DNA of 50,158 bases from Parabacteroides acidifaciens (lineage in GTDB: Bacteria; Bacteroidota; Bacteroidia; Bacteroidales; Tannerellaceae): the NCBI RefSeq assembly GCF_003363715.1, contig NZ_QREV01000036.1, positions 1 through 50,158 on the forward strand, given 5' to 3'. Of this stretch, positions 1,897 to 18,867 are shown piece after piece (the stretch's first letter is position 1; every line of letters begins with the position of its first letter). The translations under genes were made by a program, and so were the position numbers. Under the pieces are notes generated by a model that did no database searches, was not told where the DNA came from, and saw nothing but the letters and a program-made list of their open reading frames with translations.

Positions 1897-1922
1897 TTTG
1901 AATGATTTTAAACAAAGATGTG

Positions 1923-3578
1923 ATGAGAAAAAAACTTTTCCTGTTTGTTTTCTTGCTTTGTGTATGTCTGTGCCGGGCTGATACTGCCACCGGAAGGAAT
2001 AAATATATTTTTTTGATGCGTACCGCCATGTCAAGCAATGATATAGCCGATTGGAATGCGACAGTTGATGATGCGATCCTACGGTGTGATACCCCGGCAA
2101 TTTGCCAATCGCGGTTGAACCGGATGCAGTGTCTTTTCAACTTCTATTCCGCTGATTCGGCGATTGCCGAGGCGCGGGAGTGCCTTCCTTTTATATTGGA
2201 GGCAAAGCAATACAGTTTTTATTTTTCCGCTTACAGTACTTATATATCCGGACTGTTTAAGCTAAGACGGTTTGACGAAGCCAAAGAAGAGGCTGTCGTT
2301 ATGTACGAGACGGCTCAACGGATCAATCAGCCGGTAGGTATGGTTATGGCTTTGCAGGTGCAGGGAAGCATGTATTATAAATTAGGTCTATACGGACAGG
2401 CGCTCATGGTCCTTGAAAAGGGACTTGCGATATGTCCTTCTTACGAGAACGGCAAGAACCAAGTCCTCTATGTATCGGCTGTGCTATATGAATGGTTATT
2501 TATGACGGTTTTGAAAATGGATGATGTGGAGGGGATAATCCGCTATGCCGGAGATTATGCCACCCTTGTGAAGTGGAGGGAAGAACATGAGAAACCGGAT
2601 CCTACCGGCCATTATCCCGTTACGGCCCGCGCCTTTTTGGCTTTGTCTCTTTTGAAGGACGGACAGGTGCAAGAGGCAAAACGTCTGTTGGATGAGGCTG
2701 CTTCTTTTATCTATCCCCAGATTCCGGCAAACGCTTATGAGCATTTTTACGAAGCCCGTTGTGCCTTGCGGCAAGCGGAAGGAGATTATCGGGGGGCGAT
2801 TGAGGATATGGATATTTTGTTGGCGGCACATAAAGGCGACCTTTCTTTTTATATGGACGACCTGTTGAGGAAAGCTGAACTGTTGGCCTATTCCGACGAA
2901 CCCCAGTCTTGTGCACCGTTCTACCAAACCTATATACAGATGAAAGACTCGGTAAACAGTTTGAATATCAACGCAAGGATAGATCAACTACATACGCTTT
3001 TCGAGGTAGACCGGCTGAACAGGGAGAAGCGAAATGCCCGGATCTGGATGATTTGCGCCTTTACCGGTTGTTTATTACTGGTTTTACTGCTATCCGGCTA
3101 TATCGTCTATTCCCGGCGATTGAAAGCGAAAAACCGGATACTTTACCGTCGTATCCAGGAAAAGCTTCAACGGGAAAACAAAGCGGTCGAAACGATCCGG
3201 CAGATTCCGGAGGGTGATCTCTCCCGGGAATTACGCTTATTCATAAGCCTGAACGAATTGCTGGAAAATGAAAAACTTTTCACCTCTCCGTCCCTCAATA
3301 GGGATGAACTGGCGAAACGCTTGGGAACCAACCGTACCTATTTGATGGAGGCCGTACGTGCTTATGGCGGCAACATGACGGTCGGGGAGTTTCTCAATGA
3401 TTTCCGCTTGAAACATGCCGCCGGCTTACTTACCCAACCCTCCGGCCTTTCAATCGACCGGATCTGTTATGATTCGGGATTTGCCTCCCGTTCGGTTTTT
3501 TATCGTCTTTTCAGGCAAAGCTATGGCATGTCGCCTACCGAATACAGAAAACTTTCGGAAGAAAATAAGGAAGGTTAA
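1923..3578 (+). CDS. Membrane-bound TPR/AraC-family transcriptional regulator
   Basis: The protein has an N-terminal signal or anchor segment (residues 1-19, KKLFLFVFLLCVCLC) and then about 350 residues of helical, TPR-like repeats predicted to lie outside the cytoplasm. One membrane segment follows at about 375-397 (ICAFTGCLLLVLLLSGYIV), then a short coiled linker. The C-terminal AraC-type helix-turn-helix includes FASRSVFYRLFRQSYGMSPT. This is the layout of one-piece membrane regulators common in Bacteroidetes that signal without a kinase. The start at 1923 is chosen over 1902 because the -7 element at 1889-1896 would place transcription start at about 1903 and because the leader then looks normal. 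The nearest likely target is the GLUG lipoprotein pair 114 bases downstream; this is inferred. Confidence 0.85.
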   Translation: MRKKLFLFVFLLCVCLCRADTATGRNKYIFLMRTAMSSNDIADWNATVDDAILRCDTPAICQSRLNRMQCLFNFYSADSAIAEARECLPFILEAKQYSFYFSAYSTYISGLFKLRRFDEAKEEAVVMYETAQRINQPVGMVMALQVQGSMYYKLGLYGQALMVLEKGLAICPSYENGKNQVLYVSAVLYEWLFMTVLKMDDVEGIIRYAGDYATLVKWREEHEKPDPTGHYPVTARAFLALSLLKDGQVQEAKRLLDEAASFIYPQIPANAYEHFYEARCALRQAEGDYRGAIEDMDILLAAHKGDLSFYMDDLLRKAELLAYSDEPQSCAPFYQTYIQMKDSVNSLNINARIDQLHTLFEVDRLNREKRNARIWMICAFTGCLLLVLLLSGYIVYSRRLKAKNRILYRRIQEKLQRENKAVETIRQIPEGDLSRELRLFISLNELLENEKLFTSPSLNRDELAKRLGTNRTYLMEAVRAYGGNMTVGEFLNDFRLKHAAGLLTQPSGLSIDRICYDSGFASRSVFYRLFRQSYGMSPTEYRKLSEENKEG

Positions 3579-3692: not shown

Positions 3693-6596
3693 ATGTGTAT
3701 GAAGACAAACTGCTTTTATCTGTTACTCTTTCTTTTTGTCCTGTCCGGTTGCTCGGATCGTGATGTTATAACACCCGAAACACCTCCGACTTCCAGGGAC
3801 GTTTATGAGGGTCCGCAAGACCAGGTCACTTTCTCGAATGAGACGGAGGATTTCTCGTACGGCGAACTCACTTTTTATTTCAAGACACCCGACGGTAGCA
3901 TCATCCATAGGAATGCCAAGCACCAGCGGTTTTCCGGTGTATCCCATTTTTCAATGGAAAGAGGTTTGAAAGAGGGTAAATATCTACTGCTGTATCTCGA
4001 ATATACAGTAAAATCGGAATGCCCGGATATTAACGGGTTAAAACGGAAATTTGGCTTATGTTGTAAATTGAATGTGACGAAAGAAGGTATCCAGTTGGAA
4101 AGCACATACGCCGGCAATGCTAAATTATTCGGCAGTGGAACCCAGGACGATCCGTATCTGATCAGCAGCCCTGAGGATCTGACTAAAATCAGATATGCTA
4201 TCCAGAATGGCGTGATTACTTCGTCTTCCTGCTTCTCTCAGGTACACGATATTTATATGGATGACTATAACAAACAGTGTGGTTGGGAAGGCAATTGGTA
4301 CCAGATAGGACAGAGCAGTACTCATCCGTTTACCGGCTATTATTTCGGAAATGGATATAAAATCCTGAATCTAACCATGTCTGACCAGAATAAAGTCGGT
4401 GCCAGCTTGTTCGGATACATAGACAAGGCAGCTATCATGGACCTGGAGATATATCACGCCAATATCACCGGTCTTAGCGCCGTGTCGGCCATAGCCGGCG
4501 CGGTCGTTACATCGGGAAGTGGACGCGATGCCTCCTTTATAAAAGGATGTAAGGTGACTTCGTCAGTGATAGCAGGCCGCCAGAAAGATGGTCTGGCCGT
4601 TGGTGGAATTGTCGGTTGTGTGGATCCTGATGTGAAGCTGTGGATAGATTCCTGTAGCGTAGAAACGACCTACTTGTCCGGCGCTATCGCTGTAGGCGGT
4701 ATCCTGGGAGGCGCCAACCTGAGGTCGGCCACGCAAATTACAAACTCGCACAACTCGAATGGCACTGTTGATGCTTTATATACAAATGCCGGTGGAATAG
4801 TCGGTTATGCAGACTCCTTGTATGTCTATCTTTGTACTAACAGTTCGAGTGTTACAGGTTATAAGGTAGAAAATGGTAAACCGGCTGGTGTTCCTTCTAC
4901 CTCTCTTCTTAACCTCGGTACAGGAGGTATTGTGGGCGGAAGCGGGATCAGTACGATTATTACCTGCAGCAACGAAGGAAAGGTGTCTGGCTATAGAGGG
5001 GTCGGAGGAATCCTGGGCAGCACATTGGTGTCAGTCAATCCGGAGGCCAGCTATAACAATACGTTCGTCGGATATTGCTCTAACAAGGGAACAGTCAAAG
5101 GTGATAGCTATGTCGGAGGTCTGTGTGGCGAGGCACAATTGGCTGTGTATAAATCGTATAATGATGGAGCTGTCGAGGCTGCGAATGAATATGCCGGAGG
5201 TATAATAGGGATGACCCCGTTGTCTACGATTTCCAACTCGGTCAACTTTGCGCCCGTATCTGCATCCGGCTATGCCGGTGGAATGAGTGGCATGATGGTG
5301 ACTGGTTCCCTGGCTTTGGATGTAAACATGGGACCGGTGTCTGTCAAGGGGAGCCATGTCGGAGGTATGATCGGTATCGGTGGAAGTTGTCTGGCTGTGA
5401 ACTATTGTGCCAACTTTGCCAATCTCTCCGGAAATACGCGTCTCGGCGGCATCATCGGAGAAGTCGGAGATAAAAGGGTGTGGACTGCGAGGGATAAAAT
5501 TTCTGCCATATTTGCATCTGCTGAGTTTTTAGTCTCGGTCGCAGGTGTTATACCTATTCCCGGTTTTGTCGGGAAAAGCGGAAAGGCTATTATCGAGGCA
5601 GTATTCACCACACACGATCTTGTGATGACAGCCGTCAATTATTTTACCCTGGAGCACGAATTTAAGCATCTGCTCGACCCCATAGAACGGAAAGTCTTTT
5701 CAAACACGCTAAGCGGGTTAATGGCTATGGGAATGGAGACGTTGGAGTCGGATATGGACCAATTGCTGGTCAGTAGACTCTCGGTCTCTTTTAAGGATAA
5801 AGATCTGCGGAGAGATGAGATGATCAACGCATTTATGAAGAACAGGGCCGATGTTGTAAAATGGTATGAAACAGGTTCCAACCACGAGATCTACCGTGAT
5901 GCCATGAATTACAAAAGAGATGCGCGCTACGAACATCTCTTGAAGAGGAAACAGGTCGAATCGATTGCCCATTCCCTGGTGGATGGCGTATGTTTCTATG
6001 CCGGAACAGTTGCGATGGTGGTGGGGATGGTTGCCACGCCTGCAACCGGTGGGCTCAGTCTGGTGCTCTCGGCGGCGGGAGTTGTTATTAGCGGAGTCGG
6101 GTATGCCAATTCGATGATCGCCCTGGCAGATGATTTTGCCGAGAATGCAGTGGTGGTCACCCAATGTGTCAGCTTCGGAAACATGAACGTTACCAGTTCA
6201 GAAAAGTATAACGGCGGGCTTGTCGGAGAACTGGCGCAAAACTGTCTTGTCTCGGATTGTCTGAACGGCAGTGACGGCTATGCGGGCGGGGCGCTTGTCG
6301 GACATCCGGAGAGAGTTGCCGAACTGAAGAACTGTTTGAACATCGGTTATGGTTGGCCTAATATGGCCTATAATGACGCTCAGGGTAGCCGATATGTGAA
6401 TCTTTATTACTGGAATGCCTTTCCCCCGAGTCATGAATATCCTGAATATCAAGGTTTGATATTAAATCAGCTGAATAGGAAGAGTAGTTATAGCGGTTGG
6501 GATTTCAGCGTACGTTGGTCGTTACCTGATACAAACATCGGCAGTTTCCCTGTTCCCTACCAGTCTGAGATGCAATATGAGAAACCTAAACAATAA
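3693..6596 (+). CDS. GLUG-repeat surface lipoprotein with a helical hydrophobic insert
   Basis: This is a 967-residue predicted lipoprotein. The signal ends in the lipobox LSGC (Cys20) followed by SDRD, resembling the acidic export signal that sends Bacteroidetes lipoproteins to the outer face. A beta-rich domain (about 25-145) precedes GSGTQDDPYLISSPEDL, the usual entry to a GLUG repeat domain. Many YxGGIxG/GGLVG repeats fill about 215-590 and resume at about 820-900. Between them, residues about 593-820 are unlike the rest: helical, with charged segments and two Gly/Ala/Val-rich hydrophobic stretches (about 610-635 and 766-808). ATG codons at 3693 and 3699 are both usable. The gene is co-directional with the next GLUG gene, 12 bases away. 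Function is unknown; adhesion or surface binding is a guess from the repeat type. Confidence 0.8.
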   Translation: MCMKTNCFYLLLFLFVLSGCSDRDVITPETPPTSRDVYEGPQDQVTFSNETEDFSYGELTFYFKTPDGSIIHRNAKHQRFSGVSHFSMERGLKEGKYLLLYLEYTVKSECPDINGLKRKFGLCCKLNVTKEGIQLESTYAGNAKLFGSGTQDDPYLISSPEDLTKIRYAIQNGVITSSSCFSQVHDIYMDDYNKQCGWEGNWYQIGQSSTHPFTGYYFGNGYKILNLTMSDQNKVGASLFGYIDKAAIMDLEIYHANITGLSAVSAIAGAVVTSGSGRDASFIKGCKVTSSVIAGRQKDGLAVGGIVGCVDPDVKLWIDSCSVETTYLSGAIAVGGILGGANLRSATQITNSHNSNGTVDALYTNAGGIVGYADSLYVYLCTNSSSVTGYKVENGKPAGVPSTSLLNLGTGGIVGGSGISTIITCSNEGKVSGYRGVGGILGSTLVSVNPEASYNNTFVGYCSNKGTVKGDSYVGGLCGEAQLAVYKSYNDGAVEAANEYAGGIIGMTPLSTISNSVNFAPVSASGYAGGMSGMMVTGSLALDVNMGPVSVKGSHVGGMIGIGGSCLAVNYCANFANLSGNTRLGGIIGEVGDKRVWTARDKISAIFASAEFLVSVAGVIPIPGFVGKSGKAIIEAVFTTHDLVMTAVNYFTLEHEFKHLLDPIERKVFSNTLSGLMAMGMETLESDMDQLLVSRLSVSFKDKDLRRDEMINAFMKNRADVVKWYETGSNHEIYRDAMNYKRDARYEHLLKRKQVESIAHSLVDGVCFYAGTVAMVVGMVATPATGGLSLVLSAAGVVISGVGYANSMIALADDFAENAVVVTQCVSFGNMNVTSSEKYNGGLVGELAQNCLVSDCLNGSDGYAGGALVGHPERVAELKNCLNIGYGWPNMAYNDAQGSRYVNLYYWNAFPPSHEYPEYQGLILNQLNRKSSYSGWDFSVRWSLPDTNIGSFPVPYQSEMQYEKPKQ

Positions 6597-6608: not shown

Positions 6609-9600
6609 ATGAGAACGACAAATAAGCCTGTATGGCATTTCTATTTATATTTGATAATCCTGTTGGTTGCCGGAGGTTGTTCCGATGATGATATCCAGCG
6701 TAACAGTTTCGGGTCCACACTGACGGAATCAGGCGATCATCTGATTAGTTCCTTTACTTTGCCCGAAGGTAAGACGGAGTTTGTTGATGACGACGGAATC
6801 ATCTATTTCCAACTCCGGTCTTTGAGCGACAATAGTCATCTTGATTTTGAAGGGCGGTTGAAGCGTACCTCCGGTCTTCTTTCGTGCGACCTTTTTATCC
6901 CTCATGGCCAGGCTATTGTCGACGGAGACTATGTCGTCTGGATACGGAAAGAGGCCGATGGAGACATCTATCCGCAATGTTATCGCCTGACATTTCAAGA
7001 CCACATGGTCTGCGGCGTACAAAGCTCCCTGCATCAATACGACCAATTGGTAGGAGAGGGTACCGATACGAATCCATACTTGATTTCCTCTACCGAAGAT
7101 TTCGCCTATTTGATGCGACAGCTTCTCATGTATGACAGTGACTACGGTAAAGGACAATATTTTAAACAGATATGTAATATCGATGCGCCTGTTACCGAAT
7201 GCCTTTACCAGGGAAACGGTTATAAAAGCGCACCGTTTGCCGGGATATACGATGGTGGCGAAAATAAGATAAGCCCCCTGCGGTACACCGGGACAAATAA
7301 TAGTGAGAAAGATTCTTATGTCGGTCTCTTTTCTGCTCTTTATGACGGTGCAGTCATACGAAACCTGAGTATTGGGGACGCGCATATACAGAAGCCTGCC
7401 TCCAAATGCGGTTTGCTGGCAGGAGCAGCACAAGGAAATGTCCGCATTGAAAATGTAACAGTGAGCGGGGAAATAACTACAGGGGGAGAAATGATCGGAG
7501 GTCTGATCGGCTATGCCGAAGGAACTGGGAATACACCGGGTAATCTTACGATTCAAGACGTTAAGGTTGATGTCGGCTTTGTAGGATGCGGTCCTTATAC
7601 GGGAGGCCTGATCGGCTGGGCGGAAAATGTCCACATGAACGTAAAAAACATTGGATCTAATTATCCGTTCGGTTCCCTTGAAGGTGGAGAGCATTCGGGT
7701 GGTTTAATCGGTAAATTATATGGTAGAATAGACGCGGATAGTATTCGGTTTGCGCATTCCACAGATGATAGGGATATGGTGATTGTCTCCGGAAAAAGCT
7801 TTACGGGCGGCCTGATCGGGGAACTTTTTATGACTGGCTCATGCTCTTTAAAAAATGTAACGATTAATTATCCGATCAGCGGAACTTCCGAAGTGGGTGG
7901 CCTGGCCGGGAAGGTTGTCTCTGATGGTGCAGCCCCCTATACGTTGGCGATAGACTCGTATCAGTTGCCTTTAGGGAGTCTTATGGTCAAAGGAAATGGT
8001 TACGTTGGCGGGCTAATCGGCTCTTTGAATCCTCCCGATGGCGGAGGCATCACCTTGCAATTTGCCGGGAACTCATTATTAACATCTAATATAGAGGTGG
8101 CAGGTGATTATGGCGGAGGCGTTTTAGGGCGTGTCTATAATACGAATATAGAGTTTCAAACTTCATCTACCCTGACAATAGACATAGGGCATATAAATGC
8201 GACGTCTCGGGGAGGCGGTTTTGCAGGTTATATGGAATCTTGCGGGACGGTCAATCTCGGTAATGTCCGAATGAGCGGCTACACGGAAGTTAATGCTTTG
8301 GAATACGCCGGTGGTTTCGCCGGATCCCTTCTGACTACAACTCTCCAGGGAACGTACAAGCCGGTGTTCAGCCGGACCGATGTGGTTGTCAATAACTCCG
8401 ACAAGGCATTTTTTTCAGGGAAAGTGAATAGCGGAGCCCTGTATTCGGGAGCTAAATATGTCGGAGGCCTGGTCGGATGGGCTGAAAAATCCAGAATCAA
8501 CGGCTTCTATGTCACCCCTACTGTCACCGGTGTGAACTATGTGGGAGGAATTGCCGGATATATCGTTGATACGCCTGTCGGGGATTGTGCAAGTAAGTGC
8601 GGGGTGTTCAATGGCACAGGTTCAGGCTCCGAGGCCTTGGGAGGGCTCATCGGGTATTTGTGCAGCGATTGGGCAGAATGTGGCTACGAGAATCTGATCA
8701 ACTACTCTTCAGCTGTGATAAGCGGCGGAACGAATGTCGGCGGGATAATCGGCCACGTGGAAAGTAAGGGTACCGGTGTCGTGATAAAGTTGACGAATGC
8801 TGTGAATCTTGGAGATGTGTCGGTGAACATGACGGGCGGCGGTATTGTCGGATGGTGTTCAGGGAACGGTTCGTTTGAAATTTATAATGCTGCCAACTAT
8901 GGGACCATTAAGGGAATACTCGGGGATAAATCTTCCGGATTGGGCGGTATTGCCGGTACGTGCGCCTATCGTACAACAGTCTATAACTCGGTGAATCATG
9001 GGACCGTTATGACCGGAAGCAATGCCGGATACATGGGCGTAGGCGGCCTGGTCGGCTATTTTAGTGGTGGAAACGGGATGCATATCCGGTATTGCTGCAA
9101 CAGGGGGACAGTCGATTTTCCGAAGTCGAAGGAAGATTACGGTTGCGTGGGTGGTATTTTGGGTAAAGTGGAAGGTGCTAAAAAAGACGACGACAATCAT
9201 ATCCTGGATTGCTATAATGCCGGCGAAATTAAGGGCCAGCAAGGAGGGGCATCTACGACGAGTGGCGATCATCGAGGCGGCATTGCCGGCTCCCTGGGTT
9301 CAAACAGTCGTTGCTACCGGGCTGTCAATACGGGTAATGTCGAGAAAGGAAACGGAGCTGTCGGGACAACCGATCTCGTAACAAGGGATCTGACACACCT
9401 TTATATTCGCAACGGAAGTGGAAAAAATTGGGAGTCTTCGATTGTCAGCGATGCCGACAAAGGTAAGCAAGACCTATATTCGGGATTTGATTTTAAAGGA
9501 ATAAACGGTCCGGACTATAAGCCGGTGTGGAGCTTGGATGATGCCTCTGTAAACAGTGGTTTTCCATATCTGCATCCGGATAGGTGTTACTTCCAGGTTG

Positions 9601-9617
9601 CGGAATATAAGGAATAG
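6609..9617 (+). CDS. GLUG-repeat surface lipoprotein, second copy
   Basis: This is a 1002-residue paralogue of the preceding protein. The lipobox VAGGC (Cys24) is followed by SDDD, a good match to the Bacteroidetes surface-export signal. A domain of about 120 residues precedes EGTDTNPYLISSTEDF, the same junction as in the upstream gene. From about 190 to 930 the sequence is a regular series of GLUG-type repeats (GGLIG, GGIIG, GGLVGW, with short YVGG lead-ins), as in right-handed beta-solenoids. It lacks the helical insert of its neighbour. The 12-base gap implies an operon, so both products may work as a surface pair. Ligand unknown. Confidence 0.8.
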   Translation: MRTTNKPVWHFYLYLIILLVAGGCSDDDIQRNSFGSTLTESGDHLISSFTLPEGKTEFVDDDGIIYFQLRSLSDNSHLDFEGRLKRTSGLLSCDLFIPHGQAIVDGDYVVWIRKEADGDIYPQCYRLTFQDHMVCGVQSSLHQYDQLVGEGTDTNPYLISSTEDFAYLMRQLLMYDSDYGKGQYFKQICNIDAPVTECLYQGNGYKSAPFAGIYDGGENKISPLRYTGTNNSEKDSYVGLFSALYDGAVIRNLSIGDAHIQKPASKCGLLAGAAQGNVRIENVTVSGEITTGGEMIGGLIGYAEGTGNTPGNLTIQDVKVDVGFVGCGPYTGGLIGWAENVHMNVKNIGSNYPFGSLEGGEHSGGLIGKLYGRIDADSIRFAHSTDDRDMVIVSGKSFTGGLIGELFMTGSCSLKNVTINYPISGTSEVGGLAGKVVSDGAAPYTLAIDSYQLPLGSLMVKGNGYVGGLIGSLNPPDGGGITLQFAGNSLLTSNIEVAGDYGGGVLGRVYNTNIEFQTSSTLTIDIGHINATSRGGGFAGYMESCGTVNLGNVRMSGYTEVNALEYAGGFAGSLLTTTLQGTYKPVFSRTDVVVNNSDKAFFSGKVNSGALYSGAKYVGGLVGWAEKSRINGFYVTPTVTGVNYVGGIAGYIVDTPVGDCASKCGVFNGTGSGSEALGGLIGYLCSDWAECGYENLINYSSAVISGGTNVGGIIGHVESKGTGVVIKLTNAVNLGDVSVNMTGGGIVGWCSGNGSFEIYNAANYGTIKGILGDKSSGLGGIAGTCAYRTTVYNSVNHGTVMTGSNAGYMGVGGLVGYFSGGNGMHIRYCCNRGTVDFPKSKEDYGCVGGILGKVEGAKKDDDNHILDCYNAGEIKGQQGGASTTSGDHRGGIAGSLGSNSRCYRAVNTGNVEKGNGAVGTTDLVTRDLTHLYIRNGSGKNWESSIVSDADKGKQDLYSGFDFKGINGPDYKPVWSLDDASVNSGFPYLHPDRCYFQVAEYKE

Positions 9618-9689: not shown

Positions 9690-9735
9690 TGTCAAGAAAA
9701 TAGACAGTGGTGTCAAATAATTAGACACTGCTGTC
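9690..9735 (+). promoter_or_regulatory. Paired palindromes upstream of the first permease operon (candidate enhancer sites)
   Basis: TGTC-N9-GACA occurs at 9690-9706 and at 9711-9727, the second extended to GTGTC-N9-GACAC. A further TGTC half-site begins at 9732. The three TGTC starts are exactly 21 bases apart, two helical turns. Paired palindromes of this kind about 75 bases upstream of a -24/-12 promoter are what an NtrC-family activator would bind. Confidence 0.7.
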
Positions 9736-9781
9736 TATTCTGCTTTTATTTATCTGATTGATTATTTGATTGTTATGTTGT

Positions 9782-9798
9782 TTGGCATATTATTTGCT
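9782..9798 (+). promoter_or_regulatory. Sigma54 (-24/-12) promoter of the first permease operon
   Basis: TTGGCATATTATTTGCT has GG at 9784-9785 and GC at 9796-9797 separated by exactly ten bases, with the expected TTGGCA and TTTGC contexts. Transcription would begin near 9809, leaving a leader of about 22 bases before the ATG at 9831. Confidence 0.75.
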
Positions 9799-9830
9799 GC
9801 TTTTCATGAAATAACCAATCATATGAAGAT

Positions 9831-12179
9831 ATGAAGACTTTGTTACATAACTTTTCCGGCGTATTCCGTCGGTTTAGGTTACCGACAGCCTTGAACTTGA
9901 TAGGTATGTCCGTAGCCTTTGCTGTGTTTTTGATTCTGATGATGCAGATGACGTATGAGTGGGGGTTCGACCGTTTTCATAAACATGCCGATTGCCTTTA
10001 CAGACTTGAAATTACGCATGAGGATTATGGAGGGCAGGCTTGCCTGAACCGTCCGTTGATAGATGCTTTCGTGGCTTCTTCCCCGCATATAGTGAAGGGG
10101 GCGCTTTTGAATGGCTTTGTCGATAAACAGTATGTGATGGTTGAGCATGACGGAAACCGGGAGTCTTTCCTCGAGACCTTATATCCTGTCTCTGCGGACT
10201 ATGCCGATGTGTTCGAGCTTACAATGGTCGAAGGAGACCGGTCGGCTCTGTCCGTTCCCGGCCAGGCGCTGATATCGCAGGGGATGGCTCAGAAGTTTTT
10301 CGGCTCATCTTCCGCATTGGGACAACAATTGGTGGGAGAGGGCTGGACGGTTGTCGTTGGCGGCGTCTATAAGGATCTTCCGGAAAATTCCATAGTGCGG
10401 AATGCTATTTACAGGAAAATATCCGATCGGGAAGGGGCAGGACAATGGGGTATGAATAATTACGAGTGTTACCTCCGCCTGGATGATCCGGCTTCCGCCG
10501 CCGGATTGGTTAGCAATTTCAAACGATATTTCCGGCATGACCAGTTGAACTGGGAAGAAATGGACTTGCGCCTTGTCTCCCTGCATGAGGTTTATTTTCA
10601 GACAGACAGCCATTTCGATACACAAAAACAGAAAGGCAGCTATACCTTGTTGCGCTTGCTGTTGGGCATCGCTTTCCTGATCGTCGTGATCGCTGCGATC
10701 AACTTTACCAACTTCAGCAATGCACAGGTCCCGATGCGGGTGAGAAGCATTAATACGCAAAAGGTATTGGGCGGTGGTGTCGGAATCATCCGCCTTTCTT
10801 TGGTCTTGGAGGCGGTAGGGATTTGCCTGGTTGCATACCTGCTGTCTTTGTTTTATATCTATGGCCTGTCGCGAAGTTCGTTTGCCGATATTGTGGTCGG
10901 CGGGCTTTCGTTGGAGGGTAGGTTGCCTTTGATCCTCTGTACGGGAGGATTTGTCGTTGTGATCGGGGTGTTGGCCAGTTATTGGCCTGCCCGGTACATC
11001 ACATCTTTTCCGCCGGCATTGGTGTTGAAAGGTAATTACGGCCTGTCTCCGAAGGGAAAGAAGTTGAGGAACTGTCTGGTCTGTTTGCAGTATATCGTTT
11101 CTTTTGTCCTGATCATCGGAGCTTTGTTTGTAAACCTGCAAAACCGGTATATGCTCCATCTGCCGCTCGGATTTGACAAGGAGCAGGTGGTTGTCGTCGG
11201 AAACCTGACGAACGAATTGAAGAAGCAGCCGGAACTGATCAAGCAAAAATTAGGAGGAATGCCGGATATCGAGTCTGTCTCTATGGTCTCGCACCTGATT
11301 GGCGCAACGGATAACTATACGCGCATGGGACGCACTCGCAACGGCGAAGAGATACAGTTTTTGTTGGTTCAGGCAGATCCCTCGATCCTGGATGTTTTGG
11401 GAATCAAGCCGGTTGCCGGAAGGAATTTCCAGGCAGAGGATGCGTCGGGTGACGGCACGTATATCTTTAATGAGATGGCACGCAAGCAATTTGAACTCGA
11501 ACCGGGGGATATCCTGTCTCTGGATTGGGGCGATTTTCATGCACGGGAACAGATAGCCGGATTTATGCCGGACCTGAAATATAATTCTTTCAAAAGCATA
11601 ACGGAACCTTTTGGCTTTTTTGTCGGAAAGAATACTTATCTGTCCAAGGTGATGATCCGTACTCACACCGGTGTCGATTATACGGATTTGAAGACGGCTC
11701 TTACGGGCGTTTTACATGATATAGACCCGAATTACCTGCCGGAAATCAGCCTGTTCGATGAAGTTCAGGACTATCTCTATGAAAAAGAGCTGCGGGTAGG
11801 ACGCCAGATCACCTTCTTCAGTCTGGTGACGGTGTTGATCTCGCTGATCGGAGTTTTCGGGGTTGTAATGCTTGAAAGTGAATATAAACGGAAAGAAGTT
11901 GGCATTCGGAAGGTTTTTGGTGCAACGATTGGCGAACTGTTACGTCTCTTTAATAAGACGTATTTGCAAATCGCGACAGCCTGTTTTGTGGTTGCCGTTC
12001 CGGTCGCCTATTATGCGATCATCCGTTGGCAGGAAAGTTTTATTTATAAAGTAAGTCTTTCATGGTGGATTTTCGTATTGGCTTTCTTGTCGGTAACGAC
12101 CATTACTTTATTAACTGTCTCTATCCAGAACTGGCGCGTGGCAAATGCGAACCCGGTTGACAGTCTTAAAAGTGAATAA
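9831..12179 (+). CDS. FtsX/MacB-like ABC transporter permease
   Basis: This 782-residue permease has the double-FtsX layout common in Bacteroidetes. An N-terminal membrane helix (about 18-38) leads into a periplasmic MacB-type domain. A first FtsX block of membrane helices (about 275-440) includes INFTNFSNAQVPMRVRSINT and the TSFPPALVLKG stretch. A second periplasmic part follows, then a C-terminal FtsX block (about 660-775) with SLIGVFGVVMLESEYKRKE. Relatives move lipids, lipoproteins, peptides or antibiotics, or transmit force across the envelope; the substrate here is unknown. It is the first gene after a sigma54-type promoter and shares an operon with the next permease (14-base gap) and an ATPase. 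Confidence 0.88.
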   Translation: MKTLLHNFSGVFRRFRLPTALNLIGMSVAFAVFLILMMQMTYEWGFDRFHKHADCLYRLEITHEDYGGQACLNRPLIDAFVASSPHIVKGALLNGFVDKQYVMVEHDGNRESFLETLYPVSADYADVFELTMVEGDRSALSVPGQALISQGMAQKFFGSSSALGQQLVGEGWTVVVGGVYKDLPENSIVRNAIYRKISDREGAGQWGMNNYECYLRLDDPASAAGLVSNFKRYFRHDQLNWEEMDLRLVSLHEVYFQTDSHFDTQKQKGSYTLLRLLLGIAFLIVVIAAINFTNFSNAQVPMRVRSINTQKVLGGGVGIIRLSLVLEAVGICLVAYLLSLFYIYGLSRSSFADIVVGGLSLEGRLPLILCTGGFVVVIGVLASYWPARYITSFPPALVLKGNYGLSPKGKKLRNCLVCLQYIVSFVLIIGALFVNLQNRYMLHLPLGFDKEQVVVVGNLTNELKKQPELIKQKLGGMPDIESVSMVSHLIGATDNYTRMGRTRNGEEIQFLLVQADPSILDVLGIKPVAGRNFQAEDASGDGTYIFNEMARKQFELEPGDILSLDWGDFHAREQIAGFMPDLKYNSFKSITEPFGFFVGKNTYLSKVMIRTHTGVDYTDLKTALTGVLHDIDPNYLPEISLFDEVQDYLYEKELRVGRQITFFSLVTVLISLIGVFGVVMLESEYKRKEVGIRKVFGATIGELLRLFNKTYLQIATACFVVAVPVAYYAIIRWQESFIYKVSLSWWIFVLAFLSVTTITLLTVSIQNWRVANANPVDSLKSE

Positions 12180-12193
12180 ATAACAAATCGAGT

Positions 12194-14563
12194 ATGAAAA
12201 CGATCTTACGAAACTTCTTTAGCGTACTTCGCCGTTTTAAAGCGGCGACACTTCTCAATGTGTTGGGGTTGAGCATAGCCTTTGTAGCCTTTATGCTGAT
12301 TATGATGCAGGTGAATTATGATTACACCTTCGACTGCAGTCACCGGAATGCGCCGTCTATATTCCGTTTGGATCTTGTGCGAGAAAAAGGTTCCCAGGCA
12401 ATTATCTGTCGACCTTTTGCACGGGCGTTTACCGAATCGTCTCCTCATATTGAGGGAGGAGGGATTATGGAAGGTTGGACAAGCAGCTATTTCTTTTATG
12501 TGGAGCAAAACGGACAGCGGACCAGCTATAAGGAAAACACCGTAAATGTAACTCCTGAGATACTGAAAGTCTTTCATTTCGACTGGTTAGAAGGAACTGC
12601 ACAGGCATTGGACGAACCGAACAGTATTATCCTTCCGGAAAGTATGGCGGAAAAACTTTTTGGGGGTGGATCGGCAATGAACAAGCAATTGATCTCTTCC
12701 AATCCGAAGGAGGATGCAAAAATCGTGAAAGGTGTCTATAAGGATTTTCCTCTTAATTCGTCCTTGCAGAACGTGATATACACTTCCATGAACCCGAAAG
12801 ATAATTATAATAGTTGGGGTAACTGGAACTATCTATTTTTTGTCCGCCTGGACGATCCGGTCAATAAAGATGTTGTGTTGGATACTTTTAAAAAGAATTT
12901 TAATGCAAAAGAAGCTTTTGGCGATGATTTCGATTGGGAGAAGGAGGGCATGGATCTTCGTTTGACCTCCCTTCCCGATGTCCATTTCCTGAATAATGTC
13001 GATTTCGACTCGATGCCGAAGGCAAGCCGGCAGACGATACTTGTGCTTTTCTCCATTGCTTTTGTTATCCTTATTATTGCCGGCATTAATTTTACGAATT
13101 TCAGTACGGCGTTGACTCCGATGCGTATCAAGAGTATCAATACGCAGAAAGTGTTGGGGAGCTCCGACCGTATGTTGCGGGGCTGTCTGTTGATGGAATC
13201 GGTTTGTGTCAGTATTTTTGCTTATCTGCTTTCGCTCCTGCTTTTATATCTCGCACAGAAAACGCCGATTGCTTCGCTGGTGGATGCTGATATGTCGTTC
13301 GGTGCACAGCCGGGGATTATCGGTGGCACGGCCTTGATCGCTGTGATTGTCGGAATGTTGGCCGGCCTTTATCCTTCCTATTACATCACTTCTTTCCCGC
13401 CGGCATTGGTGCTTAAAGGAAGTTTCGGGCTTTCGCTTGCCGGACGCCGGATGAGGAGCTTCTTGGTGAGTATTCAGTTTGTGGCTTCCTTTATCCTGAT
13501 TATCGGCTCTTTATTTATGTATTTACAGAACCATTATATGCAGAATGCGCCGCTGGGATATGATAAGGAGGAAATGATTACGATTCAATTGAATAATAAG
13601 ATCAACCAGAATCGGGATGCTTTCACGAACCAGTTGAAGACGTTTGCCGGAGTTGAAGACGTGACTTATTCCCAGTTCCTGTTGGCCAGCCAAGATCAGT
13701 ATATGGGTTGGGGGCGTGATTATAATGGAGAACAGATTAGTTTCCAGTGTCTTCCTGTCTCTTCTTCTTTCCTGAAAGTGATGGGAATCGAAGTGAAGGA
13801 AGGACGTAATTTCCGGTCGGAAGATGACCTGAAAGAGGATGGCTGTTACATTTTTAATGAAAAAGCAAAAGCGTTATACGACTTGAAGTTGAATGAAAAG
13901 ATAGATGGTGACGAAATTATCGGTTTCATCCCGAACATCAAGTTCGCTTCTTTTCGTCAGGAGGTTTCCCCGATGGCCTTTTATTTATGGGGAAAATATC
14001 AATGGGGGCAGGAAGGTAATTATTATAATACAGGCTATGTGAAGTTTAAAGCCGGAAGCGATCTTCGCGCCGGGATGAAACATGTGCGCGAGTCGTTGTC
14101 CAAGTTTGATTCGGAGTACCCTTTTGTGGTTCGTTTCTATGATGAGGTGATGCAACGGACGTATGAAAAAGAATTGAAGATCGGTTCGCTGATAACATTG
14201 TTCAGTCTTATCGCTATCTTTATCTCGATTGTGGGCGTGTTCGGACTGGTTGTGTTCGAGAGCGAATACAGGCGGAAAGAAATTGCCGTACGCAAAGTGC
14301 TGGGATCTACGACAGGCCAGATCTTGTATATGTTCAATGTGAACTATTTCTGGATTCTGTTGATCTGTTTTATCCTGGGTGCTCCGGTTGCCTGGTATGG
14401 TGTTTACCGGTGGTTGGAAAACTTTGCTTACCGTACGCCGATGTATTGGTGGGTATTACCGTTTGCATTCCTGGTTGTGGGTGTGATTACGGTGGTAACG
14501 GTGACATTCCAGAATTGGCATGTGGCAAATGAGAATCCGGTAAATAATATAAAATCAGAATAA
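12194..14563 (+). CDS. FtsX/MacB-like ABC transporter permease
   Basis: The 789-residue product is paralogous to its upstream neighbour over its whole length: the same N-terminal helix, MacB-like periplasmic domain, INFTNFSTALTPMRIKSINT block, YYITSFPPALVLKGSFGLSL stretch, and C-terminal helices beginning ISIVGVFGLVVFESEYRRKE. It lies 14 bases after the first permease and 31 bases before the ATPase gene, so the three are almost certainly cotranscribed. Two such permeases beside one ATPase suggests either a heteromeric complex or alternative partners for a shared ATPase. The substrate cannot be read from the sequence. Confidence 0.88.
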   Translation: MKTILRNFFSVLRRFKAATLLNVLGLSIAFVAFMLIMMQVNYDYTFDCSHRNAPSIFRLDLVREKGSQAIICRPFARAFTESSPHIEGGGIMEGWTSSYFFYVEQNGQRTSYKENTVNVTPEILKVFHFDWLEGTAQALDEPNSIILPESMAEKLFGGGSAMNKQLISSNPKEDAKIVKGVYKDFPLNSSLQNVIYTSMNPKDNYNSWGNWNYLFFVRLDDPVNKDVVLDTFKKNFNAKEAFGDDFDWEKEGMDLRLTSLPDVHFLNNVDFDSMPKASRQTILVLFSIAFVILIIAGINFTNFSTALTPMRIKSINTQKVLGSSDRMLRGCLLMESVCVSIFAYLLSLLLLYLAQKTPIASLVDADMSFGAQPGIIGGTALIAVIVGMLAGLYPSYYITSFPPALVLKGSFGLSLAGRRMRSFLVSIQFVASFILIIGSLFMYLQNHYMQNAPLGYDKEEMITIQLNNKINQNRDAFTNQLKTFAGVEDVTYSQFLLASQDQYMGWGRDYNGEQISFQCLPVSSSFLKVMGIEVKEGRNFRSEDDLKEDGCYIFNEKAKALYDLKLNEKIDGDEIIGFIPNIKFASFRQEVSPMAFYLWGKYQWGQEGNYYNTGYVKFKAGSDLRAGMKHVRESLSKFDSEYPFVVRFYDEVMQRTYEKELKIGSLITLFSLIAIFISIVGVFGLVVFESEYRRKEIAVRKVLGSTTGQILYMFNVNYFWILLICFILGAPVAWYGVYRWLENFAYRTPMYWWVLPFAFLVVGVITVVTVTFQNWHVANENPVNNIKSE

Positions 14564-14594
14564 CAAATTACAAATCATAAATAAAAGAACGGTT

Positions 14595-15275
14595 ATGATT
14601 AAGATCGAAGGTTTGAGTAAGTTTTTCCGTACGGAAGAAGTGGAGACGATCGCGTTGAACAATGTCTCCCTGGAAGTGAAAGACGGCGAGTTTGTGGCTG
14701 TCATGGGCCCTTCCGGTTGTGGCAAGTCTACCTTGCTGAATATCCTGGGTTTGCTGGACAACCCGACATCGGGCGACTATTATCTGGCGGACAAAGAGGT
14801 CGGACATCTCAAAGAGAAAGAACGTACGCAGGTTCGTAAAGGGAATATCGGTTTCGTATTTCAGAGCTTTAACCTGATTGACGAATTGAATGTGTTCGAA
14901 AATGTGGAACTGCCGCTTACCTACCTGAAGGTGAAAGCTGCCGAGCGTAAGCAGATGGTGAACGACATCCTGAAACGGATGAATATCAGCCATCGTGCCA
15001 ACCACTTCCCGCAGCAGCTCTCCGGAGGTCAGCAGCAGCGTGTGGCCATTGCCCGTGCCGTCGTTTCGAATCCAAAGATCATCCTCGCCGATGAGCCGAC
15101 CGGTAACCTGGATTCCAAGAATGGTGCGGAAGTGATGCAACTCCTTACCGAACTGAACCGGGAGGGAACGACGATCGTGATGGTAACCCACTCCAAACAT
15201 GACGCAAGTTTCGCTCACCGTATCATTAATCTGTTCGACGGTAGCATTGTTTCGTCGGTAAACGAATTTATATAA
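14595..15275 (+). CDS. LolD/MacB-type ABC transporter ATP-binding protein
   Basis: The 226-residue cytoplasmic ATPase drives the FtsX-type permeases of this cluster. All motifs are intact: Walker A GPSGCGKS at 38-45, Q-loop Gln90, signature LSGGQQQ at 142-148, Walker B ILADE at 163-167, and switch His199 (VTHS). Length and spacing fit the LolD/MacB/FtsE group of single-domain ATPases. It is the last gene of the first sigma54-type unit, and a second permease gene with its own matching promoter follows 191 bases later, so this one ATPase may serve all three permeases. Confidence 0.93.
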   Translation: MIKIEGLSKFFRTEEVETIALNNVSLEVKDGEFVAVMGPSGCGKSTLLNILGLLDNPTSGDYYLADKEVGHLKEKERTQVRKGNIGFVFQSFNLIDELNVFENVELPLTYLKVKAAERKQMVNDILKRMNISHRANHFPQQLSGGQQQRVAIARAVVSNPKIILADEPTGNLDSKNGAEVMQLLTELNREGTTIVMVTHSKHDASFAHRIINLFDGSIVSSVNEFI

Positions 15276-15284
15276 GATTGTAAT

Positions 15285-15323
15285 TGTAAAGAAAATGGAC
15301 AGGTGTGTCAAATAATTTGACAC
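15285..15323 (+). promoter_or_regulatory. Paired palindromes upstream of the second permease unit
   Basis: GTGTC-N9-GACAC lies at 15305-15323, and its inner part TGTCAAATAATTTGACA is a perfect palindrome. A weaker copy, TGTA-N9-GACA, lies at 15285-15301, exactly 21 bases upstream. Its spacer, AAGAAAATG, nearly repeats the spacer AAGAAAATA of the upstream site at the first operon. The arrangement mirrors 9690-9727. Confidence 0.7.
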
Positions 15324-15376
15324 TATGATAAAGATGCTGGTTGAGTATATTGTTGATAGTTAATAATATATGGGTT

Positions 15377-15393
15377 TTGGCACACTATTTGGA
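15377..15393 (+). promoter_or_regulatory. Sigma54-like promoter of the second permease unit
   Basis: TTGGCACACTATTTGGA has a perfect -24 part (TTGGCAC) with GG at 15379-15380. Ten bases later it has GG in place of the usual GC at 15391-15392. The -24 GG is 73 bases after the start of the main palindrome (15306), exactly as at the first operon (9711 to 9784). The -12 mismatch may make it weaker. Confidence 0.6.
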
Positions 15394-15466: not shown

Positions 15467-17848
15467 ATGAAAACGATTCTAAGAAATTTTCTAAGTGTGT
15501 TGAGAAGGTTCCGGCTGGCTACTGCGTTAAACGTGGTGGGCTTGTCGGTGTCCTTTGCTGCTTTTATCATTATTATGATGCAGGTCCGCTATGAACGGAC
15601 GTTCGACAGTTGTCATCCGAACGTTTCCCGTATCTACCGGGTGGAAGTGGACATGAAAGAATATAAGGGTTCGACTATTCTGGCCCGCCCGTTTGTGGAT
15701 GCAGTTATCCAGTCGTCGCCTTTGATCGACGCCGGGACTTTGTTCAATCCGTTTACCGGCGAATACTATTTTACGGTTTTGCAGGGACAGGATAAAGTGG
15801 GCTTTAAAGAACCGTTTATCACTTGTTATCCGGAGATAACGAAGATGTACCATTTCGATATGGTGGAGGGCAATGCCGATTGCTTGAATGATGTGGAGAA
15901 GGCGTTGATACCGGAAAGCATGGCGCGCAAGTTTTTTGGCGAAGGTTCGGCTGTCGGCCAGCGCCTGAATATGGAAGAAAGTATCTGGAGCAAGAATACG
16001 GATGGCTTTCTGGTTGTAGGAGGGGTGTATAAAGATTTCCCTGGCAATACGCAGTTGAACAATGTGATTTATACGGCTATCTATGACGATCGTACGAAGG
16101 ACGCTTGGGTCAGTAATAACTATTTCTGCTATCTCATGCTGACTCCCGATGCATCACCGGAAACCGTAGCCGACAATTTTAACCGTACGTTCGATTTCAG
16201 TAAATGCTATAAAGGAGAAGAGGATGTACACATCAGGCTTCGTCCCTTCAGTGAAATTTATTATCTGAACGAATCGCAGGATGGCCGCCTGGTCAAGAGC
16301 GGTAATCCGGAGACGACAAAGTTGTTGCTGATGATTGCTTTCCTGATTATTATCGTGGCGGCTATTAACTTTACCAACTTCAGTACGGCATTGACGCCTT
16401 TGCGCATCAAGAGCATTAATACGCAGAAAGTATTGGGAAGTTCGGAGTCTGTTTTACGTTTGTCTCTTTTGGTGGAAGCGATGGGAATTGCTTTTCTTTC
16501 GTTCTTGATTTCTTTGTTCTTGATTTATGTGTTGAACCGTCCGGAGATACTGTCTTTTGTAAAGGCAGATTTGGCATTGAGTCACAACATCGGCTTGTTG
16601 GTTGCGGTCGGTGGCTTGTCATTGTTGGTCGGATTGGCGGCGGGCTTGTATCCGGCCTGGTATATCACTTCGTTTCCGCCGGCGCTGGTGCTGAAAGGTT
16701 CGTTCGGGCTTTCGCCTGCCGGCCGCAAGCTGCGCACTTGCCTGATGGGATTCCAGTTTGTGGTGTCGCTTGTCCTGATTATCGGGGCACTCTTCATTTA
16801 CCTGCAGAATCGTTATATGCAACATTTTCCGCTTGGATTCGATAAAGACCGTATCGCGGTAGTGGAACTGAACGGCAGGATGGCGACTAAGAATAAGGAT
16901 GCGTATGTCAATAAGCTGAAAGAATATCCGGGGATAGAAGACGTTGCCTTTGCACAGGAAAAGTTGGGAGCGCAGGACAGCTATATGACTTGGAGCGGAG
17001 TGTATAAGGAGCAGAATGTGGGTATCAATGCTCTGCCTGTTTCCTGGAATTTTATCGATGTGATGGGGATTCAGCGGGCCGGCGGACGCCAGTTGACCGA
17101 GGCGGATGAAAAGGGTAAAAAGCTTGTCTTCGTCTTATTCGATGCCATGCGCAAACAATATGATATGAAAGATGGTGATTCTTTTATGATACCTTGGTTG
17201 GAGGCGGATGATCCGATCGAAATAGCGGGTTTTGTAGAAGATGTTCATTTTACCTCTCTGCGCAGCAAGCTGGAAAATACCGCCTTGATTATAAATTATT
17301 GGGGACAGTTACCAGTGTCTTATATCCGGATCAAGGCGGGTACGAATCTGCCCGAAGCGGTAGATCATATCCGGAAAGTCGTGGCCGATATTGATCCGGC
17401 CTATCCGGTGGATGTGCAGTTCTACGATACGATATTCGACAGTCTGTACCGCCAGGAAGAGAACCTGAGTATGATGGTGTTCCTGTTTAGTCTGTTGGCG
17501 ATAATTATTTCTCTGGTAGGTGTGTTCGGTCTGGTCGTGTTCGAGTCGCAGTACCGGAAGAAAGAGATCGGTATCCGCAAGGTGCACGGTTCGACAGTCG
17601 GAGGCATTTTGGGGATGTTGAGTAAGCGGTATGTCGCAATCGTGCTGATATGCTTTGTCCTGGCAACTCCGCTTGCGTATTACGGCGTAACGAAATGGCT
17701 GGAGAACTTCACATACAAAACCCCTATTCATGTGTGGGTGTTTGCTGCAGCTTTGGTCGTGGTAATGCTTATAACGCTGGCTACGGTTGTTTTCCAAAGC
17801 TGGAAAGCGGCTACGGCAAATCCGGTGGAAAGCATTAAAAATGAATGA
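15467..17848 (+). CDS. FtsX/MacB-like ABC transporter permease
   Basis: This is the third paralogous permease (793 residues), with the same order of parts: an N-terminal helix, a periplasmic MacB-like domain, a first FtsX block containing INFTNFSTALTPLRIKSINT and WYITSFPPALVLKGSFGLSP, and a C-terminal block starting SLVGVFGLVVFESQYRKKE. It is separated from the ATPase by 191 bases that contain its own sigma54-like promoter and palindrome pair. It is therefore probably a separate unit of the same regulon, which would allow its dose to vary relative to the first two permeases. Confidence 0.88.
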   Translation: MKTILRNFLSVLRRFRLATALNVVGLSVSFAAFIIIMMQVRYERTFDSCHPNVSRIYRVEVDMKEYKGSTILARPFVDAVIQSSPLIDAGTLFNPFTGEYYFTVLQGQDKVGFKEPFITCYPEITKMYHFDMVEGNADCLNDVEKALIPESMARKFFGEGSAVGQRLNMEESIWSKNTDGFLVVGGVYKDFPGNTQLNNVIYTAIYDDRTKDAWVSNNYFCYLMLTPDASPETVADNFNRTFDFSKCYKGEEDVHIRLRPFSEIYYLNESQDGRLVKSGNPETTKLLLMIAFLIIIVAAINFTNFSTALTPLRIKSINTQKVLGSSESVLRLSLLVEAMGIAFLSFLISLFLIYVLNRPEILSFVKADLALSHNIGLLVAVGGLSLLVGLAAGLYPAWYITSFPPALVLKGSFGLSPAGRKLRTCLMGFQFVVSLVLIIGALFIYLQNRYMQHFPLGFDKDRIAVVELNGRMATKNKDAYVNKLKEYPGIEDVAFAQEKLGAQDSYMTWSGVYKEQNVGINALPVSWNFIDVMGIQRAGGRQLTEADEKGKKLVFVLFDAMRKQYDMKDGDSFMIPWLEADDPIEIAGFVEDVHFTSLRSKLENTALIINYWGQLPVSYIRIKAGTNLPEAVDHIRKVVADIDPAYPVDVQFYDTIFDSLYRQEENLSMMVFLFSLLAIIISLVGVFGLVVFESQYRKKEIGIRKVHGSTVGGILGMLSKRYVAIVLICFVLATPLAYYGVTKWLENFTYKTPIHVWVFAAALVVVMLITLATVVFQSWKAATANPVESIKNE

Positions 17849-17925: not shown

Positions 17926-18867
17926 ATGATCAATAGAAGAAATTTTTTGAAAAATGCGTCCCTGTTTACGTTAGGTGGCTTGATGGCCGGTAAAGTAGGG
18001 AATGCCGTTGCAGCCCAGCCTGCAACACCTGCTGTATCGGAAGCGATGGCAGCAAAGAATATCGGTTTACAAATCTATTCTTTAGGCAAGGAGTTATACA
18101 CGGATGTTCCGGGTGGAATGAAGAAACTGAAAGGGATGGGATACGAAACCTTGGAGCTTGCCGGCTATGGTAATGGCAAGATCAATGGTGTCGACATGAT
18201 GGAATTTAAGAAGATGGCGAATGATGCCGGTCTTAAGATCATCAGTTCCCACGTGAATCCTCCTGTTCGCGAGTACACGAAAGACAACTTGGCGCAAATT
18301 AAGGAATACTGGAAAAAGACGGCTGACGACCATGCCAAGATCGGTGTGAAATATTTGGTTCAGCCCGGCCAGCCCAGCACCCGTAGTGTGGAAGAAACAA
18401 AATATGTATGCGAAGTCTTCAACGAAGCCGGAAAGATTGTAAAAGCTGCCGGTATCCCGTTCGGATATCATAATCATGATATGGAGTTTGCAAAAGTAGT
18501 TCCCGGCGGTAAAGAATTGAAGTTCGGGCGTCACAATAAGGGCGAAAAGGTTTACGACATTTTCCTGGCAAACACAGATCCTTCCCTCGTATTCTTCGAA
18601 ATGGATGTTTACTGGGCTGTTATGGGCCAGCAGGATCCTGTCGAATATATGAAGAAATATGCGGATCGTATCAAAGTATTGCATATTAAGGATCGTGCTG
18701 TTTTAGGAGAATCCGGAATGATGAATTTCGAATCGATCTTCAAACAGTTCTATGCAAATGGCTATAAAGATTATTTCGTTGAGCTGGAAGGTATTGGCGA
18801 AGGCAAGCAATTCGACGGAGTGAAAGGTTGCGCCAATTATCTGAAGAAAGCATCATTTGTGAAGTAA
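17926..18867 (+). CDS. Sugar phosphate isomerase/epimerase-like TIM-barrel protein, Tat-like leader
   Basis: The 313-residue protein begins MINRRNFLKNASLFTLGG, a twin-arginine-like export signal of the type common on Bacteroidetes oxidoreductases and isomerases. The rest matches the xylose isomerase-like TIM barrel (AP endonuclease 2 family). Typical stretches are KNIGLQIYSLGKEL near the first strand, GIPFGYHNHDMEF carrying metal-ligand-type His residues, FFEMDVYWAV, and IKVLHIKD. Relatives isomerise or epimerise sugars or keto-sugars; the substrate here is not known. It has its own promoter and is followed by a strong hairpin terminator at 18898, so it is probably monocistronic. Confidence 0.85.
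   Translation: MINRRNFLKNASLFTLGGLMAGKVGNAVAAQPATPAVSEAMAAKNIGLQIYSLGKELYTDVPGGMKKLKGMGYETLELAGYGNGKINGVDMMEFKKMANDAGLKIISSHVNPPVREYTKDNLAQIKEYWKKTADDHAKIGVKYLVQPGQPSTRSVEETKYVCEVFNEAGKIVKAAGIPFGYHNHDMEFAKVVPGGKELKFGRHNKGEKVYDIFLANTDPSLVFFEMDVYWAVMGQQDPVEYMKKYADRIKVLHIKDRAVLGESGMMNFESIFKQFYANGYKDYFVELEGIGEGKQFDGVKGCANYLKKASFVK

Follow-up and report, generated by a model that had tools for sequence, protein, structure and literature searches.

Promoters of the nifH, glnHp2 and Pu type combine upstream activating sequences (UAS), a site for integration host factor (IHF) and a sigma54 promoter, and are served by NtrC-family activators. Two control regions resembling them are found in a 50,158-nucleotide stretch of the Parabacteroides acidifaciens genome (contig NZ_QREV01000036.1 of assembly GCF_003363715.1). 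This whole stretch is called the window below, the genome is G000, the contig C75, and L-numbers denote fetched loci. As in the known systems, upstream activator sites precede a -24/-12 element with an IHF-like site between them, and the candidate activator, encoded on contig C1, has a receiver domain (PF00072), a sigma54-interaction domain (PF00158) and HTH_8 (PF02954). They differ in that the spacing here is near-invariant over genes and genomes, two IHF-type halves make up a symmetric predicted bend site, and the targets are efflux genes, not nitrogen or catabolic genes. Both regions are probably part of a single sigma54 regulon that serves a tripartite ABC efflux system and is controlled by the C1 kinase and regulator. 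On sequence evidence, a single two-component regulator switching on scattered efflux-pump parts together is the most likely arrangement.

A link between FtsX permeases and sigma54 has been reported. A 2025 survey found COG0577 permeases to be enriched for sigma54 in several classes, Bacteroidia among them, and presents its FtsX link as first evidence (PMC12316311). Its Bacteroidia permeases are like the present ones in that sigma54 promoters are predicted on COG0577 permeases. The terms IHF, UAS, "upstream activat", palindrom and Parabacteroides are absent from its main text, and no regulator was found assigned to the FtsX permeases in the relevant parts. In Flavobacterium psychrophilum, PMC9723704 connects -24/-12 promoters to envelope-stress functions and several exported proteins, with one promoter reporter-tested; the word permease is absent from it. 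No paper describing the candidate regulator, the UAS words that go with it or the bend element was recognised in the literature searched, which left aside most subscription journals. The kind of system is known, and its rigid grammar with interchangeable words looks like a new form of it.

Direct reading of the window confirmed two control regions with palindromes and a -24/-12 element in the same geometry, as described in the first-pass annotation (Table 1). Each contains a pair of TGTC-N9-GACA palindromes whose starts are 21 bases apart, and 55 bases separate the proximal palindrome from an element of the TGGCA-N6-TTG type. The second palindrome claimed 21 bases upstream is present in both units, with one imperfect arm in unit 2. 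The claimed distance of 73 bases is obtained when counting begins at the initial T of the proximal TGTC and ends at the GG (9711 to 9784 and 15306 to 15379). The palindrome pairs of the two units are identical at 33 of 38 bases and the spacers at 23 of 55. The annotation took fixed spacing around a diverged spacer as a sign of function. The spacers have diverged only in part, and the argument is partly wrong because a conserved 25-bp IHF/HU-like dyad (83 sites) sits inside them.

The genome-wide scan for the pair and -24 geometry that the annotation had called for was conducted with fixed patterns. A loose pattern gave 12 rows (reversed pattern: 0) and a strict pair pattern with up to 3 mismatches gave 8 sites among the matches listed; C13:95195 was matched by the loose pattern and missed by the strict one. 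Together, the patterns, 20 fetched regions and the window yield ten pair sites in the genome: two in the window, three on C71, and one each on C94, C1, C101, C102 and C83. An efflux-type gene (FtsX/MacB permease, ABC ATPase, TolC or HlyD) lies downstream of eight. The first gene is an FtsX permease at five sites and an ABC ATPase at one; at the C1 site TolC is followed by HlyD, and at the C101 site HlyD is followed by FtsX. The C101 site was found solely since its region had been fetched, and further sites in this genome whose geometry deviates from the fixed patterns may have escaped the whole-genome searches. On C71, a 163-amino-acid open reading frame (ORF) between permease units (L059:16461-16952) appears by eye to be similar to extracytoplasmic function sigma factors.

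The control regions are conserved in relatives. The strict pattern (at most 3 mismatches) occurs in 69 of 123 family genomes among the matches listed, and its reversed version in 0 of 123. In an order-wide draw of 393 genomes it was present in 11, of which four belong to the family, and the reversed control matched once. Relatives contributed 100 rows, counted in 80 regions fetched around a subset of the listed strict-pattern sites. With the own genome this makes 110 kept rows, four of 114 having been dropped (one reverse reading of a site and three rows with 3 promoter mismatches). Of the 110, 103 show spacing 21 together with gap 55. The 102 canonical sites were cut to 83 by spacer similarity, and over these 83 the -24/-12 columns 93-97 and 103-106 (distal palindrome first T = 0) are near-invariant. 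Chance occurrence was rejected by the reversed-pattern and dinucleotide-shuffle controls.

Efflux-type genes were present in the downstream ORF run of 89 of the 100 relatives' rows. For the remaining 11, TBLASTN recovered such a gene no more than 4.5 kb downstream in 9 (98/100 overall). Among these, L133 reaches only 24% identity, and in L150 the gene begins about 1 kb away; at L161:8648 and L171 no efflux-type gene was found by TBLASTN within 4.5 kb downstream. With 8/10 own sites and 98/100 rows in relatives, the palindrome pair is tied to related efflux operons, as the annotation had expected. TolC, HlyD, permease and ATPase genes are all found behind the same kind of control region. In L113, L115 and L116 a single site heads a run of TolC, HlyD, two FtsX permeases and an ATPase, and in P. 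acidifaciens these genes are dispersed, every one of the several loci carrying a separate copy of the site. TGTC-N9-GACA is also an AT-rich dyad of the type that many repressors use, so that the palindromes could simply serve as a repressor operator, next to which the -24/-12 match would be incidental. This is very improbable given the near-constant distance to TGGCA-N6-TTG before different genes in many genomes and a motif that tracks an NtrC-type protein.

The spacer dyad is a third element, missed in the first pass, and is predicted to be an IHF/HU-like bend site. It occupies columns 61-85 of the 83 dereplicated sites, with its centre near column 73. The conserved columns are Y61 A62 W63, Y68 T69 G70, A77 R78 and T83 T84 R85, of which A62, T69 and T84 exceed 1.7 bits. 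In leave-one-out scoring the best match was at offset 61 in 80 of the 83 sites. In 28 held-out sites (L226-L267) the best position was always 19-20 before the T of TGGCA; this set has 25 sites without the family members L234, L239 and L241, and L231/L232 and L252/L260 are near-identical pairs. When own-genome sites were excluded from the matrix, 3 of the 100,266 window 25-mers scored as high as the unit 1 dyad or higher, and the unit 2 dyad was the best of all. The own regions also contain 18 TGGCA-N6-TTG matches without a canonical pair: seven in C76, C79, C101 and C83 promoters score 2.3 to 11.8, and the remaining 11 score below zero.

Each half of the dyad fits WATCARNNNNTTR, the E. coli IHF consensus as quoted in PMC8899819, and the dyad is located between UAS and promoter, as are IHF sites at many sigma54 promoters. 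Both points make it unlikely that the dyad is instead the site of another regulator or an upstream polymerase contact common to these promoters, even though its symmetry resembles that of many regulator sites and it keeps its position relative to the promoter (19-20 bp before TGGCA) across different UAS words. For the bend site favoured here, the symmetry would suit a homodimeric HU-like protein better than heterodimeric IHF. The genome has 12 matches to the HU/IHF family (PF00216), nine of them full-length.

The rpoN gene, on which the annotation had made its sigma54 reading depend, was found at C13:69921 (PF04552, E 1.4e-52). PF00158 has 14 matches in the genome, ten of them strong (E 3.9e-62 or better). 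None of these ten is on C75, in line with the claims that the window encodes no NtrC-family activator and that the regulator must be encoded elsewhere. With rpoN present, efflux genes as targets and activators outside the window, the sigma54/NtrC-type reading of both regions is supported in outline.

Among the ten activators, C1:52912-54267 was singled out as the candidate by neighbourhood and co-occurrence. Its gene is divergent to the site-driven TolC-HlyD operon and is adjoined by a kinase gene (C1:54267-55583) whose product has PAS and HATPase domains and two close hydrophobic segments. A C1 orthologue lies within 4 kb of the site in 16 of the 110 kept rows (own genome + 15 relatives); all 16 are TolC-HlyD operons, L168 being recognised only by TBLASTN. 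An independent draw of 80 loci was fetched by similarity to the C1 regulator alone, and in 76 the match starts at least 600 bases in. A divergent pair-plus-promoter site was found within 4 kb in 36 of these 76, including loci of Bacteroides fragilis, B. faecis, Phocaeicola massiliensis and Rikenella microfusus. A relaxed scan of the 80 regulator loci returned 42 hits, compared to 0 in 20 dinucleotide shuffles of each.

Orthologues were defined by E below 1e-180, with contig-edge fragments added (six C1-type, two C76-type). Among the matches listed, a C1-type orthologue is present in 76 of 123 family genomes. The motif occurs in 64 of these 76 and in 5 of the 47 others (p 2e-16, relatedness ignored). 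The activators C1, C101, C76, C99 and C79:65891 carry GAFTDA in place of the GAFTGA loop, and the other five have GAFTGA or GSFTGA. GAFTDA is listed in PMC4641369 among the loop variants compatible with activation. The eight activators besides C1 and C101 were rejected as controllers, no TGTC pair being found in the stretches fetched around them. The C76-type regulator was rejected also by the missing motif association: the TGTC motif is present in 19/35 genomes with it and 50/88 without it (p 0.84, among the matches listed). The protein encoded at C1:52912-54267 is likely the controller of the TGTC-word sites.

Several observations weigh against this picture. The targets of the C102 site (a DUF3836 protein) and the C83 site (a PF00144 serine hydrolase) are no pump parts, and the geometry of the C101 site deviates (GACG arms, spacing 23, gap 52). 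Among the matches listed, 12 of the 76 orthologue-bearing genomes lack the strict motif, and of the five genomes with the motif and no C1-type orthologue two have it only at 3 mismatches. The p-values take no account of relatedness, and the orthologue cut was chosen by eye once the data had been seen. In 40 of the 76 C1-similar regulator loci a site within 4 kb is missing. Dyad scores are low at the C83 site (about 2) and low or negative at some held-out sites (range -0.6 to 14.6). Still, as far as sequences can tell, this is a real and conserved sigma54 regulon of fixed geometry, with a bend-like element and a named candidate regulator. The small DUF3836 protein gene is at L067:14218-14622 and the serine hydrolase gene at L069:14617-15876.

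The same sigma54 architecture could be served by the C101 paralogue, or by both paralogues. At 57% identity, the C1 and C101 activators have the string SRQTLYNK in common in the DNA-binding end, and the C101 activator gene is divergent to a similar pair. That pair is the deviating C101 site, and only 2 of the 14 genomes whose best regulator match is at the C101-typical level of 55-62% have the motif, which makes control by C101 or by both unlikely. Pair sites with GGACG arms were seen at L064:6956 (C101, divergent to the C101 activator) and at L133:8051 (G079), and this may be the UAS word of the C101 paralogue.

A second word accompanies the C76 regulator. GTGC-N6-GCAC pairs with spacing 21 and gap 55-56 were found in three places beside it. 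Among the matches listed, the GTGC word is present in 19 of 123 genomes, all of which have a C76-type regulator (19/35 vs 0/88), and is unassociated with the C1-type regulator (14/76 vs 5/47, p 0.31). Twenty fetched regions hold 21 of the 33 listed GTGC-word sites. Two of 25 promoter rows were dropped (3 promoter mismatches), and in 23/23 of those kept the best dyad position is 19 before TGGCA. A third upstream word, CGGACA...GTGTTC...CGGACA, precedes two sigma54-like promoters on C79 (L063:8693 and 16200), in the contig stretch that holds activator C79:65891, with a dyad at the same place (scores 10.4 and 11.8). It is an even call whether this amounts to a Bacteroidales cassette, in which a palindrome word specific to an NtrC paralogue is combined in fixed phase with a shared symmetric HU/IHF-type bend site and a sigma54 promoter. 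A swapped word would then connect a gene to another sensor, and wherever in the genome the cassette was copied, permeases would join the regulon.

Under the preferred reading, with C1 in control, the membrane histidine kinase would phosphorylate the adjoining NtrC-type response regulator. Regulator dimers would occupy both palindromes on one helix face (21 bp, two turns) and an AAA+ ring would assemble. An IHF/HU-family protein on the 25-bp dyad, whose centre lies 44 bp past the proximal palindrome, would fold the DNA and bring the ring to RNA polymerase-sigma54 at the -24/-12 element 20 bp further on, where the polymerase would be opened. Scattered loci would thereby raise their permeases, ATPase, TolC and HlyD together. 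The near-rigid spacing suits a complex that needs activator, bend and polymerase in phase. The signal is a guess from homology: envelope or antimicrobial stress.

The predicted pump resembles MacAB-TolC and the darobactin exporter DarBCD, in that the HlyD-type adaptor is similar to the DarC model, the MacB/FtsX permease to DarB and the ATPase to DarD; here the genes are scattered over several loci. All three NCBIfam cut-offs were missed (DarC 214 of 450 bits, DarD 289.9 of 375, DarB 56.1 of 700), and the match to the ADOP permease model is also below its curated cut-off. HlyD passes the general adaptor model TIGR01730, the sole curated cut-off reached among the Dar, ADOP and adaptor models, so that peptides or envelope toxins can only be guessed at as exported substrates. 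Bce-type modules of Firmicutes pair an FtsX permease with a kinase. The present system is like them in placing FtsX-family permeases under a putative controlling kinase with two close hydrophobic segments, and unlike them in its predicted NtrC/sigma54 output, the PAS domain and the TolC and HlyD partners.

The window permeases w1, w2 and w3 (Table 1) are 40-43% identical to one another. In relatives of the w2-ATPase pair (G043 and G045; L153 and L158) the site is followed by a single FtsX gene, which matches w2 at 83%, and then by the ATPase and a 313-amino-acid ORF. Because of this single-permease arrangement, w1 and w3 may be later additions to the w2-ATPase unit. The TIM-barrel gene downstream of w3 possibly lies in the same transcript, which is uncertain. 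Further upstream, an AraC-type regulator with a TPR match (window 1902-3578) precedes two large adjoining ORFs, 3693-6596 (967 amino acids) and 6609-9617 (1002 amino acids), which have no Pfam or NCBIfam match at E 0.001.

Table 1. Control elements and genes of the two permease units, in window coordinates.
Feature	Position	Strand	Remarks
Distal UAS palindrome, unit 1	9690..9706	+	reads TGTCAAGAAAATAGACA
Proximal UAS palindrome, unit 1	9711..9727	+	reads TGTCAAATAATTAGACA; start 21 past distal start
IHF/HU-like dyad, unit 1 (predicted bend site)	9751..9775	+	score 12.5
Sigma54 -24/-12 element, unit 1	9783..9797	+	reads TGGCATATTATTTGC from 9783
FtsX/MacB-type duplicated permease w1	9831..12179	+	PF02687, PF12704
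FtsX/MacB-type duplicated permease w2	12194..14563	+	PF02687, PF12704
ABC ATPase	14595..15275	+	PF00005; DarD is the closest NCBIfam model, cut-off not reached
Distal UAS palindrome, unit 2	15285..15301	+	reads TGTAAAGAAAATGGACA; imperfect arm (TGTA)
Proximal UAS palindrome, unit 2	15306..15322	+	reads TGTCAAATAATTTGACA
IHF/HU-like dyad, unit 2 (predicted bend site)	15346..15370	+	score 14.9
Sigma54 -24/-12 element, unit 2	15378..15392	+	reads TGGCACACTATTTGG from 15378
FtsX/MacB-type duplicated permease w3	15467..17848	+	PF02687, PF12704
TIM-barrel protein	17926..18867	+	PF01261; 313-amino-acid ORF after ATPase also in L153, L158

For the Bacteroidales, which are major bacteria of the human gut, the searchable literature offers little mapping of sigma54 control. 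The result is a searchable promoter grammar in which two words each have a candidate regulator, and it predicts which dispersed efflux genes would switch on jointly. The near-invariant geometry and the common predicted bend site offer a natural experiment on the phasing of enhancer, bend and polymerase. The proposed link between the kinase and the FtsX pump is directly testable in cultured gut commensals.

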